Source: Ignavibacteria bacterium (GTDB lineage: Bacteria > Bacteroidota > Ignavibacteria > Tepidaquicellales > Tepidaquicellaceae). From it: a stretch of 64,000 bases of DNA. How positions within the stretch are numbered: position 1 is the first letter of the stretch; each line of letters opens with the position of its first letter. Below the pieces are notes generated by a model that had not been told where the DNA came from, did no database searches, and worked only from the letters and a program-made list of their open reading frames with translations. Below are positions 22,887 to 60,337 of the stretch, one piece after another. The translations under genes and the position numbers were made by a program. The stretch lies in the NCBI GenBank assembly GCA_019187405.1, contig JABAQZ010000015.1, positions 1 to 64,000 on the forward strand, in the 5' to 3' direction.

Positions 22887-22904
22887 TGTTTTCAATTATC
22901 AATG

Positions 22905-23030
22905 TTCAATGTTCGATGTTCGATGTTCGATGTTCAATGTTCGATGTTCAATGTTTGATGATCAATGTTCGATGATCTATGTTCGATGTTCAATGTTCGA
23001 TGTTCAATGTTCAATGTTCAATGTTCGATG
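22905..23030. repeat. Heptanucleotide array TTCRATG, 18 units
   Basis: Eighteen 7-bp units without a single indel (18 x 7 = 126 bp). Nearly all are TTCAATG or TTCGATG; three are diverged (TTTGATG, ATCAATG, ATCTATG). It lies just after xerD. The period is not a multiple of three and no open frame uses it. The rest of the gap up to 23190 is plain AT-rich sequence. Confidence 0.95.
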
Positions 23031-23190
23031 TAGAATTTGTGTTGTATTGTTTTAGATTCGCTATTGTGGCGGAATTTTCTATAGAAGATTGACTTGGGAA
23101 GCTGAAATTAAGTTAAATTGAAATGCTGACTTAAAATACTTATATTTATAGCAATTAACAAATCTTAATAAACTTAATTAATTTTAAGAA

Positions 23191-37663: not shown

Positions 37664-37986
37664 TATATTATTTTTAATTATTAGACGAAAAATACTTAAA
37701 AATGTTTCTGTAAATAAAATAAAGAGCAAATAAAATAAACATATTTTACGATTAATGCATATCAAACCTGATCAAATCAATAGTAGGGTAAACAAATCAA
37801 AAGATAGAGAAATAAATCTGTTGAAAAAGAAACTGATGGTTATTTTACAATTCAATTGAGGTAGGGCAAAGGGGTTATTTTATGATATGAGCAAGTTAAG
37901 GAAAGTCAAATTGATAGTGAGAATACTTAAAGGGGGAGATTACAAATGAGAGTTATGAGTTTCTGGGGAAGTCTGTAATTTAGACT
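37664..37986. other. Intergenic region upstream of the repeat array
   Basis: 323 bp of AT-rich sequence without genes, presumably holding the promoter of the minus-strand exported-protein gene. The final ~25 bp resemble the end of the 183-bp connector of the array that follows (GAAGTCTGTAATTTA). Confidence 0.45.
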
Positions 37987-40900
37987 GCAACATAAAAGTT
38001 GTGCTACTATATTCGGCAACATAAATGTTGCGCTACTTTGTTCGGCAACATAAATGTTGCGTTACTTTATTCGGCAACATAAATGTTGCGCTACTTTATT
38101 CCGCAACATAAATATTGCGTTACTTTACACCGCAACATAAATGTTGCTCTACTTTACACCGTAACATAAATGTTGCGTTACTTTACACCGCAACATAAAT
38201 GTTGCGTTACTTTACACCGCAGATTAAATCCAATGGTACTTTTATTCTGTAGCATAAATAGTTGCTAATAAATGAGACTGACTAAAAGGAAGATCGTAGT
38301 TATGACTAAGTATTGAAAATTTAATTTGTTAATTAGAATTTTTGTTTAAGGAAGTTTGGAATGGAATGTATAAGTTATTGGTGAAGTCTGTAATTTACAC
38401 TGCAAAATAAATGTTGCGTTACTTTACACCGCAACATAAATGTTGCGCTACTTTACTCTGCAACATAAATGTTGCGTTACTTTATTCCGCAACATAAATG
38501 TTGCTTTACTTTACACCGCAGATTAAATCCCATGGTACTTTTATTCTGTAGCATAAATAGTTGCTAATAAATGAGACTGACTATAAGAAAGATCGTAATT
38601 ATGACTAAGTATTGAAGAGTTAATTTGTTAATTAGAATATTTGTTTAAGGAAGTATGGAATGGAATGTATAAGTTATTGGTGAAGTCTGTAATTTACACT
38701 GCAACATAAATGTTGCGCTACTGTACACTGAAACATAAATGTTGCGCTACTTTATTCCGCAACATAAATGTTGCGCTACAGTAATAAGTAACATAAATGT
38801 CATGCCACTTTAAACTGCAAATAAATGTTGCTTTACTTTACACCGCAGATTAAATCCCATGGTACTTTTATTCTGTAGCATAAATAGTTGCTAATAAATG
38901 AGACTGACTATAAGGAAGATCGTAATTATGACTAAGTATTGAAAAGTTAATTTGTTAATTAGAATATTTGTTTAAGGAAGTTTGGAATGGAATGTATAAG
39001 TTATTGGTGAAGTCTGTAATTTACACTGCAACATAAATGTTGCGCTACTGTACACTGAAACATAAATGTTGCGCTACTTTATTCCGCAACATAAATGTTG
39101 CGCTACAGTAATAAGTAACATAAATGTCATGCCACTTTAAACTGCAAATAAATGTTGCTTTACTTTACACCGCAGATTAAATCCCATGGTACTTTTATTC
39201 TGTAGCATAAATAGTTGCTAATAAATGAGACTGACTATAAGAAAGATCGTAATTATGACTAAGTATTGAAGAGTTAATTTGTTAATTAGAATATTTGTTT
39301 AAGGAAGTATGGAATGGAATGTATAAGTTATTGGTGAAGTCTGTAATTTACACTGCAACATAAATGTTGCGCTACTGTACACTGAAACATAAATGTTGCG
39401 CTACTTTATTCCGCAACATAAATGTTGCGCTACAGTAATAAGTAACATAAATGTCATGCCACTTTAAACTGCAAATAAATGTTGCTTTACTTTACACCGC
39501 AGATTAAATCCCATGGTACTTTTATTCTGTAGCATAAATAGTTGCTAATAAATGAGACTGACTATAAGGAAGATCGTAATTATGACTAAGTATTGAAAAG
39601 TTAATTTGTTAATTAGAATATTTGTTTAAGGAAGTTTGGAATGGAATGTATAAGTTATTGGTGAAGTCTGTAATTTACTCCGCAACATAAATGTTGCGTT
39701 ACTTTACTCCGCAACATAAATGTTGCGTTACTTTACTCCGCAACATAAATGTTGCGTTACTTTACTCCGCAACATAAATGTTGCGTTACTATATTCCGCA
39801 ACATAAATGTTGTGCTACTGTACACTGCAAAATAAATGTTGCGTTACTATATTCCGCAACATAAATTTTGCTTTACTTTATTTCGCAGCATAAATGTTGC
39901 GCTACTATATTTCGCAACATAAATGTTGCGCTACTTTATTCCGCAACATAAATGTTGCGTTACTTTATTCGGCAACATAAATGTTGCGCTACTTTATTCC
40001 GCAACATAAATGTTGCGCTACTTTACGCCGCAACATAAATGTTGCGTTACTTTACGCCGCAACATAAATGGGGCGCAACTGTACACTGCAACATAAATGT
40101 TGCGCTACTTTACTCTGCAACATAAATGTTGCGTTACTTTATTCCGCAACATAAATGTTGCGTTACTTTACACCGCAACATAAATGTTGCTCTACTTTAC
40201 ACCGTAACATAAATGTTGCTCTACTTTACGCCGCAACATAAATGTTGCGTTACTTTACACCGCAGATTAAATCCAATGGTACTTTTATTCTGTAGCATAA
40301 ATAGTTGCTAATAAATGAGACTTACTAAAAGGAAGATCGTAGTTATGACTAAGTATTGAAAATTTAATTTGTTAATTAGAATTTTTGTTTAAGGAAGTTT
40401 GGAATGGAATGTATAAGTTATTGGTGAAGTCTGTAATTTACTCCGCAACATAAATGTTGCGTTACTTTACACCGCAGATTAAATCCAATGGTACTTTTAT
40501 TCTGTAGCATAAATAGTTGCTAATAAATGAGACTTACTAAAAGGAAGATCGTAGTTATGACTAAGTATTGAAAATTTAATTTGTTAATTAGAATTTTTGT
40601 TTAAGGAAGTTTGGAATGGAATGTATAAGTTATTGGTGAAGTCTGTAATTTACTCCGCAACATAAATGTTGCGCTACTTTACACCGCAGATTAAATCCCA
40701 TGGTACTTTTATTCTGTAGCACAAATAGTTGCTAATAAATGAGACTGACTAAAAGGAAGATCGTAGTTATGACTAAGTATTGAAAATTTAATTTGTTAAT
40801 TAGAATTTTTGTTTAAGGAAGTTTGGAATGGAATGTATAAGTTATTGGTGAAGTCTGTACTTTACACCGCAACATAAATGTTGCGCTACTTTATTCCGCA

Positions 40901-41225
40901 ACATAAATGTTGCGCTACTTTATTCCGCAACATAAATGTTGCGTTACTTTACTCCGCAACATAAATGTTGCGTTACTTTACGCCGCAACATAAATGTTGC
41001 GTTACTTTATTCGGCAACATAAATGTTGCGTTACTTTATTCCGCAACATAAATGTTGCGTTACTTTACGCCGCAACATAAATGTTGCGCTACTTTACTCC
41101 GCAACATAAATGTTGCGCTACTTTACTCCGCAACATAAATGTTGCGTTACTTTACACCGCAGATTAAATCCCATGGTACTTTTATTCTGTAGCATAAATA
41201 GTTGCTAATAAATGAGACTGACTAA
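37987..41225. repeat. Composite palindrome array: 59 x 29-bp units with 183-bp connectors
   Basis: The 29-bp unit starts with the 16-bp dyad GCAACATAAATGTTGC (two 7-bp arms around AA), followed by a 13-bp linker with TACTTTA. Units occur in nine blocks of 8, 4, 5, 5, 5, 20, 1, 1 and 10 copies, 59 in all. Blocks are separated by a conserved 183-bp connector starting GCAGATTAAATCC. Connector copies begin at 38219, 38518, 38845, 39172, 39499, 40262, 40474 and 40686; a ninth at 41159 is cut after about 67 bp. The spacing fits 183 + 29n bp exactly, except three blocks with one 1-bp deletion each. Connectors hold a degenerate hairpin (TAGCA...TGCTA) and no open frame. The array is non-coding. It is not CRISPR: linkers are near-constant and connectors are identical. 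Confidence 0.95.
38518..39681. repeat. 327-bp tandem super-units inside the palindrome array
   Basis: Connector plus five units repeats three times with a period of 327 bp (38518, 38845, 39172), and a fourth connector follows at 39499. The copies carry the same degenerate units (for example ACATAAATGTCATGCC), so they come from recent duplication. Two connector subtypes alternate A-B-A-B: A has TAAGAAAG, GAAGAG and GTATGG; B has TAAGGAAG, GAAAAG and GTTTGG. This implies duplication of a 654-bp dimer. Confidence 0.85.
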
Positions 41226-41345
41226 TTGGGTGTCCCAGTGTCGAAGTCAGGTATTATTAAATAAATACTTTTTATAAAAAAAAAGCAAAAAAATCAGCAA
41301 ATTTTTTAATTTTTAAATCTTGGGTGTCCCAATGCTGAAGTCAGG
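41226..41345. repeat. Pair of 26-bp direct repeats with GGGTGTCCC core at the array edge
   Basis: TTGGGTGTCCCAGTG...GTCAGG (41226-41251) recurs at 41320-41345 with three differences. The first copy begins exactly where the last connector stops matching. Each copy holds the small palindrome GGGTGTCCC. No gene is nearby to claim it. Confidence 0.7.
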
Positions 41346-58470: not shown

Positions 58471-59661
58471 TTGGACAGCATTAAGACAGTTTCAGAACTG
58501 ACAAGAGAGATTAAAGAGCTTGTTGAGTATAATTTCGGGTTTGTTTTAGTAGAAGGAGAAATTTCAAATTTTAAACTTCATACGGCATCAGGTCATCTCT
58601 ATTTTACTCTCAAGGATGAAAAAGCTCAGATAAATGCCGTGATGTGGAATTCAAGAACTTTCAATCTGGAATTTAAGCCTGATAATGGAATGAAAGTTCA
58701 GCTTAAGGGTAGAATTACTTTATTTGAAAGCCGGGGGTCTTATCAAATTGATGTCTTTGAAATGAAACAGGCGGGTAAGGGTGATTTGTATGCTGAGTTC
58801 GAAAAACTAAAACTGAAACTTCAGAAAGAAGGCTTGTTTGATGCTGTCCATAAAAAGAGAATTCCCGATTTTCCTGAAAGAGTCGCCGTTATCACTTCCG
58901 AAAGCGGTGCAGCACTTCAAGATTTTATTAAAGTTACAAGAAAAAGATATCCATTTGTAAAACTATATCTGTTAAATGCCATTATGCAGGGAGACGGCTC
59001 AGCTGACAGCGTGTGCCGTGCAATTAAACATATTAACAAAAGCAGGCTTGGAATCGACGTAATGGTAATAACAAGAGGAGGTGGCTCGATAGAAGACTTA
59101 TGGAGCTTTAACAATGAAAATGTTGTAAGAGAAATTTTCAATTCGCATATTCCAGTTGTTACTGCAATCGGACATGAAACCGATTTTACTCTCAGCGATT
59201 TTGCCGCGGATATAAGAGCGGCTACACCTTCGGCAGCCGCAGAAAATATATTCAAAGATAAAAATGAAATGCTGAGAGTATTGGATCATGCTAATGAGGA
59301 ACTAAAGGATATTGTTAAAAGCAAAATTGAGAATCTGAAAAATCAGCTCGATAATATTTCCCGGAATTATTATTTCAGAAAACCTCAGGATATGCTTAAT
59401 GAATTCAAACTAAAAACCGATGAGATGTACAAAAAAATCTCGGACGTTGTCAGATTTAAGTTAAACAGCCTGAATCAAATTCTTAATACAACTGAGAAAC
59501 TGCTTGTAAATCTAAGTCCGGATCAGATTTTAAAGAGGGGATATACTATTGTTTTCAGAGAAGATAAAGTTTTGTCAAGAAAAAAATATTTGAAAAAAGA
59601 CGATGAGCTGAAGATTAAGTTTTATGATGGTGAGACTGGGGTGAAAGTGAGCAGTTTGTAG
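58471..59661 (+). CDS. xseA: Exodeoxyribonuclease VII large subunit
   Basis: A 396-residue protein starting at a TTG; no ATG is available near the start. An OB-fold (VLVEGEISNFKLHTASGHLY) is followed by the nuclease domain with FPERVAVITSESGAA, MVITRGGGSIEDLWSFN and IGHETDFTLSDFAADIRAATPSAAAE, and a coiled-coil C-terminus. Exo VII degrades single-stranded DNA. The last two codons and the stop (AGT TTG TAG) coincide with the first unit of the heptamer array that follows. It is separated from xseB by 676 bp; in most genomes the two genes are adjacent. Confidence 0.97.
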   Translation: MDSIKTVSELTREIKELVEYNFGFVLVEGEISNFKLHTASGHLYFTLKDEKAQINAVMWNSRTFNLEFKPDNGMKVQLKGRITLFESRGSYQIDVFEMKQAGKGDLYAEFEKLKLKLQKEGLFDAVHKKRIPDFPERVAVITSESGAALQDFIKVTRKRYPFVKLYLLNAIMQGDGSADSVCRAIKHINKSRLGIDVMVITRGGGSIEDLWSFNNENVVREIFNSHIPVVTAIGHETDFTLSDFAADIRAATPSAAAENIFKDKNEMLRVLDHANEELKDIVKSKIENLKNQLDNISRNYYFRKPQDMLNEFKLKTDEMYKKISDVVRFKLNSLNQILNTTEKLLVNLSPDQILKRGYTIVFREDKVLSRKKYLKKDDELKIKFYDGETGVKVSSL

Positions 59662-60205
59662 TTTGTAGTTAACAGTTAATAGTTTGCAGTTTGCAGTTTG
59701 TAGTTTGTAGTTAACAGTTGATAGTTTGCAGTTGATAGTTTGCAGTTGATAGTTTGCAGTTGGCAGTTAATAGTTTGCAGTTTGTAGTTTGTAGTTTGCA
59801 GTTGATAGTTTGCAGTTGATAGTTTGCAGTTGATAGTTTGCAGTTAATAGTTTGCAGTTAATAGTTTGCAGTTGATAGTTTGTAGTTTGTAGTATGCAGT
59901 TTGTAGTTAACAGTTAATAGTTTGCAGTTTGTAGTATGCAGTTTGTAGTATGCAGTTTGTAGTTTGCAGTTTGTAGTTTGCAGTTGATAGTTTGCAGTTT
60001 GTAGTTAACAGTTAATAGTTTGCAGTTTGTAGTATGCAGTTTGTAGTATGCAGTTTGTAGTTTGCAGTTTGTAGTTTGCAGTTGATAGTTTGCAGTTTTT
60101 AGTTAACAGTTAATAGTTTGTAGTTGATAGTTTGTAGTTGATAGTTTGTAGTTGATAGTTTGTAGTTGATAGTTTGTAGTTGATAGTTTGTAGTTAATAG
60201 TTTGT
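59653..60205. repeat. Heptanucleotide array AGTTNNN, 79 units
   Basis: Seventy-nine consecutive 7-bp units with no indel (79 x 7 = 553 bp). Common forms are AGTTTGT, AGTTTGC, AGTTGAT, AGTTAAC, AGTTAAT and AGTATGC. A 98-bp block of 14 units (59898-59995) is repeated exactly at 59996-60093. The array begins inside the end of xseA and fills most of the gap before xseB. The remainder (60206-60337) is plain AT-rich sequence. Reading frames hit TAG often, so it is not coding. Confidence 0.97.
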
Positions 60206-60337
60206 AGTAATATATAATTATGTAGATTATGATATAGAATTGGTGATTGAGTTTTGGGAGGTGATGAAGAATTTTGATTAGATAAATTTTATTATAATTG
60301 TAAATATGAATTTTAATAATACAATAAAATTTGAATC

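Follow-up and report, generated by a model that had tools for sequence, protein, structure and literature searches.

REPs, RAYTs and clusters of REPs are already known (PMC2817692, PMC3116915, PMC3733652, PMC6006769). The GTAG-tagged REPs and REPtrons of E. coli, Pseudomonas and Stenotrophomonas are built on a short, extragenic, multicopy palindrome in which a tag adjoins one side of the hairpin; the genome also encodes a cognate RAYT, with tagged hairpins close to its gene, and copies differ by compensatory changes in the stem (PMC2817692, PMC3733652). An invariant HxH motif together with Y-x3-N-P is the signature of class 2 TnpA_REP (PMC6006769), and the TnpA_REP enzymes known so far cut mostly at C|T (PMC8266576). 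GTAG-23 of T. roseum, which forms sizeable blocks at a small number of loci, and GTAG-1 of Thauera are concentrated in clusters, and large REP clusters consist of singletons or dimers that are tandemly repeated together with flanking DNA segments (PMC3733652). The tandem REP/REPIN clusters of P. fluorescens SBW25 are likewise ordered and include flanking sequence, and notable ones lie beside each RAYT (PMC3116915). How REPs spread and occasionally cluster is still debated, and the family described here, from an Ignavibacteria bacterium (assembly GCA_019187405.1), bears on that debate. Within a stretch of 64,000 nucleotides (contig JABAQZ010000015.1, positions 1 to 64,000; henceforth referred to as the window), we analysed a long repeat array which we consider, with a probability of roughly 80% and judging from sequence, to be a satellite-like run of head-to-tail units from a REP-type family cognate to a RAYT, seeded at few sites, then amplified locally with flanking DNA, and selfish or near-neutral.

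A unit scan of the window located 59 palindromic units between positions 37987 and 41150, arranged in nine blocks of 8, 4, 5, 5, 5, 20, 1, 1 and 10 units joined by a 183-bp connector, exactly as the original prediction had it. Its formula for the spacing of the connector starts (183 + 29n bp, with n = 4, 5, 5, 5, 20, 1, 1 and 10 after a first block of 8) was reproduced exactly, unit-to-unit spacings being 29 bp in 47 cases, 28 bp in three and 212 bp (29 + 183) in eight; the 1-bp deletion that it had placed in each five-unit block of the 327-bp super-units corresponds to the three 28-bp steps, one per super-unit. The blocks, whose tags and hairpins all lie on the minus strand, occupy positions 37987–38210 (8 units, GTRR tag plus hairpin), 38402–38509 (4), 38701–38836 (5, with one 28-bp step), 39028–39163 (5), 39355–39490 (5), 39682–40253 (20), 40445–40465 (1), 40657–40677 (1) and 40869–41150 (10). 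The eight complete connectors, given on the plus strand, follow blocks 1 to 8 at 38219–38401, 38518–38700, 38845–39027, 39172–39354, 39499–39681, 40262–40444, 40474–40656 and 40686–40868; their pairwise identity is 94–100%, connectors 2 and 4 being identical, as are connectors 6 and 7, and within the first ~60 bp of connector 1 two degraded units that keep the 29-bp register can be made out by eye. The 327-bp super-units are 99.1–100% identical to one another. The 16-bp core (16-mer) has 40 exact matches within the array, and TRF scores over it reach 2476. The claim that more than 3 kb are free of genes also held: the longest Met-started frame in the ~3.2 kb of the array interior is 32 aa, and an Rfam search of the window returned a tRNA as its sole match, with nothing inside the array.

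The right end of the array, at 41225, is made up of the initial 67 bp of a truncated ninth connector (41159–41225, plus strand). To the left, positions 37868–37986 (plus strand) are a diverged copy of the connector's final 118 bp, with a local score of 67 against a shuffle maximum of 50 (0/500), a similarity that hangs on the last ~25 bp, since once these were removed 83 of 500 shuffles were equally good. The first reading had overlooked this flank, together with the one-sided tag and the three sister arrays considered below. Because the array ends with the start of a connector and is preceded by a relative of a connector's end, the connector would be the right flank of an original REP block joined to its left flank, and 37868–37986 is probably that original flank and the source of the amplified connectors. 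The flanks of the other three arrays have no match to their own connectors, so the flank-capture model is borne out for the window array alone. Immediately outside the right end, the 26-bp direct repeat TTGGGTGTCCCARTGYYGAAGTCAGG occurs at 41226–41251 and 41320–41345 and nowhere else in the genome. Elsewhere the window holds further tandem repeats, with ~40 copies of 14/28-bp AGTTTGCAGTTTAT-like units at 59653–60208, and 7/14-bp TTCAATG units and 22-bp units at 22891–23031 and 188–291.

On the minus strand the unit reads GT[A/G][A/G]-N-GCAACAT-TT-ATGTTGC, with the consensus form GTAR-Y-GCAACAT-TT-ATGTTGC, and is followed by 8 bp. The tag is conserved on one side only, 5' of the hairpin, and conforms to GT[A/G][A/G] in 58 of the 59 window units (GTAA in 28, GTAG in 27, GTGG in three and GTTG in one), the stricter form GT[AG]G accounting for 30/59. 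Including the tag, the unit is 21 bp long and folds as single-stranded DNA at -7.4 kcal/mol (z -4.8) with the tag unpaired. Since a tag adjoining a hairpin is the anatomy of a REP element (PMC2817692, PMC3733652), we read the units as REPs and not as a symmetric protein site. All units of the window array are oriented head-to-tail.

The original prediction had called for a search of the rest of the genome and of relatives for the 16-mer and the connector. The genome (3.78 Mb in 38 contigs, here numbered with the prefix C) has 118 exact 16-mers, all within four intergenic arrays, and the tagged core was found in 3 of 391 genomes of the class. The reversed 16-mer pattern gave no genome match, so the abundance of the real pattern is far beyond chance. 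Besides the window array there are three sister arrays on two other contigs, at C1:284450–286225 (28-bp period, 160-bp step), C6:85070–86694 (29-bp period, 121-bp step) and C6:99008–99727 (29-bp period, 158-bp step); we refer to the two on C6 as C6:85k and C6:99k. The exact 16-mer does not occur outside the four arrays in this genome; a looser scan was near background among the matches listed, and decayed single copies may exist. A comparison of connectors among the four arrays gave a divided answer. Connector length is particular to each array, and the window and C6:85k connectors have no homology to those of other arrays, whereas the C1 and C6:99k connectors are homologous (score 75 against a maximum of 38 in 500 shuffles) although their contigs differ, which indicates that array material moved between both sites. 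The C6:99k and window arrays have in common the core, the 29-bp period, an AA before the tag and the 8-bp spacers TTTACTCC and TTTACTCT.

The C6:99k array adjoins a RAYT gene (C6:98295–98957, minus strand, 221 aa), the start codon of which lies 51 bp from the first core, and its 21 units are, as in the window, all head-to-tail. The encoded protein matched Y1_Tnp in Pfam slightly below the cut-off and REP_Tyr_transpos in NCBIfam with an E value of 8e-15 and 55 bits, below the curated cut-off of 80. It carries an HuH motif (H118-V-H120) and Y192-x3-NP, and in an alignment of 13 homologues the histidines, tyrosine, asparagine and proline are invariant, as in the class 2 signature. As a single sequence the protein gave weak matches to the PDB (the best, TnpA_REP, at E 0.09) and a profile was needed; that of its homologues matched the E. 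coli TnpA_REP structure 4er8 with an E value of 4e-10, better than IS200-type transposases. A RAYT with an HuH motif and a single tyrosine that adjoins its own REPs, as in a REPtron, is what this locus contains, though the NCBIfam score is below the curated cut-off. The array lies on the upstream side only, and no tagged hairpin occurs within 400 bp downstream. The window array itself has no adjoining RAYT, and a search of a contig collection for related loci returned one distant RAYT only. The C6 RAYT is probably the cognate enzyme of the window repeat family.

The three genomes with the tagged core, all of one family, are this genome, G004 (a sister genus, 53 copies) and G020 (three copies); a single 16-mer in a further genome, G029, has no tag and was set aside as probably a chance match. 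In G004 the tagged copies are scattered, several of them as inverted pairs with tags outside and ~40–60 bp apart (the HH/REPIN form), and inverted pairs are present in G020 too. Thirty G004 copies have compensatory changes at the stem base: 97.5% of cells are paired and 19 double-change cells were counted against 4.4 in shuffles, the shuffle count (0/500) being no probability since the copies are mutually related. No close RAYT homologue was found in the G004 assembly, although the repeats are present. One palindrome is thus in canonical REP form in the sister genus and in array form in this genome, and a literature search for the 16-mer found no mention of it.

RAYT-like genes elsewhere in this genome and in relatives are also accompanied by tagged palindromes. 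The 400-bp flanks of 37 RAYT-like loci contain 82 GTRR-tagged hairpins against ~1.3 expected from dinucleotide shuffles, and 24 of the 37 have at least one; since six locus ids duplicate a place, the distinct loci number 31, with 72 tagged hairpins and at least one at 20 of them. The palindromes vary from one RAYT locus to another and the tag is constant. A RAYT on C7 has 44-bp tandem repeats of GTAA-CACAGACTATCAGTCTGTG on both sides (12.8 and 11.6 copies), all on the RAYT strand, and this palindrome recurs at a RAYT-like locus on C11, in an array with a 40-bp period (15.6 copies). This second REP-like family, GTAR-CACAGACTATCAGTCTGTG, is located at L086:2969–4688 (C7) and L082:4271–4895 (C11), around the RAYT-like genes.

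Measured against published REPs, the family shares with the GTAG systems of E. coli, Pseudomonas and Stenotrophomonas all the features listed at the outset: its units are hairpin-forming palindromes in the 20–40 bp range, extragenic and present in more than 100 copies (118 exact cores). It differs from these systems in that about half of its tags are GTAA, no exact copies are scattered, every unit stands head-to-tail, an arrangement (HT) that among published dimers is absent or rare, and the C6 RAYT is not bracketed by a single inverted REP pair. The T. roseum and Thauera clusters, likened here from their published description, resemble ours in the concentration of REPs, but sequence and phylum differ. 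In SBW25 the largest cluster holds 12 REPs, mainly in inverted pairs, and the family is mostly dispersed, whereas here 59 units form one array. Subclasses 2.4 and 2.6 of TnpA_Y1 class 2 (PMC6006769), found in Bacteroidetes, resemble our system in the Y-x3-NP motif, in GT[AG]G (30/59 tags here) and double-foot REPs and in frame-keeping insertions. Genome-wide dispersal is seen in G004 and not here, where all exact copies are in the four arrays, and inverted REP pairs, the basic unit of a REPIN or BIME, are not found in the window array or the RAYT-linked array. Since dispersion, an inverted flanking pair and REPIN organisation are all lacking, we name this a RAYT-linked, REP-like array family and not a canonical REP family. 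It departs from known REPs in its tag, which is GTAA about half the time, in an orientation that never varies, in the lack of exact copies outside the arrays and in the 59 units that a single array contains; growth into long arrays that run one way, with no exact copy scattered elsewhere, is unusual. With this family, the range of GTA-tagged REP/RAYT systems comes to include a group for which a 2013 survey reported no GTAG repeats (PMC3733652). Sister genera hold one palindrome family in two states, scattered singles and inverted pairs or pure head-to-tail arrays, and several RAYTs with different tandem palindromes coexist in one genome; together these offer a natural comparison between the enzyme and host recombination as array maker.

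By the reading that we prefer, and in line with published enzymology (PMC8266576), a RAYT acting on single-stranded DNA would seed a REP at few extragenic sites; the units would next multiply where they stood, whether through slippage, through unequal recombination or through recurrent events promoted by the RAYT, and blocks would finally be duplicated along with flanking DNA, the 183-bp connector arising where right flank met left flank. Later growth of the array may come from slippage or recombination, CT, the main site of cleavage, being scarce beside the hairpins (1/53 window units and 0/21 in the C6:99k array); in the C1 array CT or CA stands directly 5' of the tag in 35/45 units, and CT is common in C1 and C6:85k. 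In its present state the array is most probably selfish or close to neutral, and it may influence transcription or DNA structure as a side effect; the selfish repeat family that the original prediction had listed among its options is the one that tagged palindromes of a RAYT/REP system bear out. Counting against a REP family with a cognate RAYT are the lack of a RAYT beside the window array, the RAYT score below cut-off, the GTAA tags (about half), the scarcity of CT and the lack of a close RAYT homologue in G004. A bolder alternative, which we regard as improbable, is that the RAYT itself builds the head-to-tail arrays, perhaps by nicking one strand again and again at codirectional hairpins and having it copied anew, and that REPs therefore stay local and do not become scattered REPINs; such arrays might later serve chromosome organisation.

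Plain satellite DNA, in which replication slippage together with unequal recombination multiplied a palindromic unit and the RAYT beside one array is a coincidence or later insertion, is somewhat less probable still. Local recombination predicts both the 99–100% identity of the super-units and the array-specific connectors, and the window array offers next to no CT site for RAYT cleavage. However, other RAYT loci of the same genome carry tandem repeats of different palindromes that are also tagged, tagged hairpins are strongly enriched at the RAYT loci of relatives, the sister genus has this tagged palindrome in dispersed form, and array material moved between contigs; plain satellite DNA leaves the tag, the RAYT association and the dispersed forms unexplained.

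There is little to recommend a binding array for a dimeric protein in chromosome partition (parS-like) or nucleoid organisation, which the original prediction had raised on account of the dyad. A 16-bp dyad at high local density would suit it, and the partition role gains from an unexpected coincidence, a parAB pair (C1:295776–297505, L108:2776–4505) ~10 kb from the C1 array, and from searches that found no canonical parS at up to one mismatch across the assembly, nor any at up to three mismatches within the 54 kb surrounding parB. However, nothing in the sequence speaks positively for the partition role: alongside its 53 copies of the same core, G004 keeps a canonical parS, 15 of 30 genomes searched have an exact canonical parS, and that of this genome may fall in an assembly gap. 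The symmetric site itself loses ground on two counts: what is conserved is asymmetric, a one-sided tag being unexpected in such a site, and other RAYT loci of the genome have repeats of unrelated palindromes. The dyad was also considered as parS and rejected, its core GCAACATAAATGTTGC differing from the canonical TGTTNCACGTGAAACA, which relatives retain.

Equally hard to sustain is a transcribed hairpin array that acts as RNA on adjoining genes by 3'-end protection or attenuation, roles that REPs have elsewhere (PMC3733652). The hairpins are stable in folding and the arrays are intergenic, often shortly downstream of a gene (~30 bp past the stop codon in L015), but the bordering genes differ at all four sites, with no conserved partner, and 59 copies far exceed the need of such a role. 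A CRISPR-like array or an assembly artefact, which evenly spaced direct repeats and an assembly broken into 38 contigs might suggest, is scarcely credible, since the spacers are 8 bp plus the tag and recur, whereas those of CRISPR are unique and ~25–40 bp, no cas-like gene was seen by eye among the adjacent ORFs listed (the original prediction, too, had noted no CRISPR feature), and arrays stand on three contigs with distinct connectors and unique flanks, though their copy number could still be wrong.

The survey of RAYT-like genes also gave several separate observations. On C4 (L081:3631–3808) a 16-bp array of TAAGACTTCAGTTGTT, in 11 copies and with no tagged palindrome, lies ~500 bp from a RAYT-like gene, and at 70 kb on C1 (L033:923–2501) a broken IS200-type transposase with an internal stop codon has 66-bp and 115-bp palindromic tandem repeats at its flanks. 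A RAYT domain also lies in frame inside an N6-adenine methylase ORF of this genome (G000, C22:6640–7191; L087:1346–5947, minus strand), which is 1533 aa long and in Pfam matches both Eco57I, at E 4e-35, and Y1_Tnp, at E 3e-7, with in-frame palindromic repeats flanking the RAYT domain. A similar arrangement is present in four relatives (L061, L062, L063 and L064); in four of the five cases the domain is near the motif DPACGSGAFP and the fifth is within another methylase type, which looks like repeated RAYT insertion without a break in frame or a true fusion.
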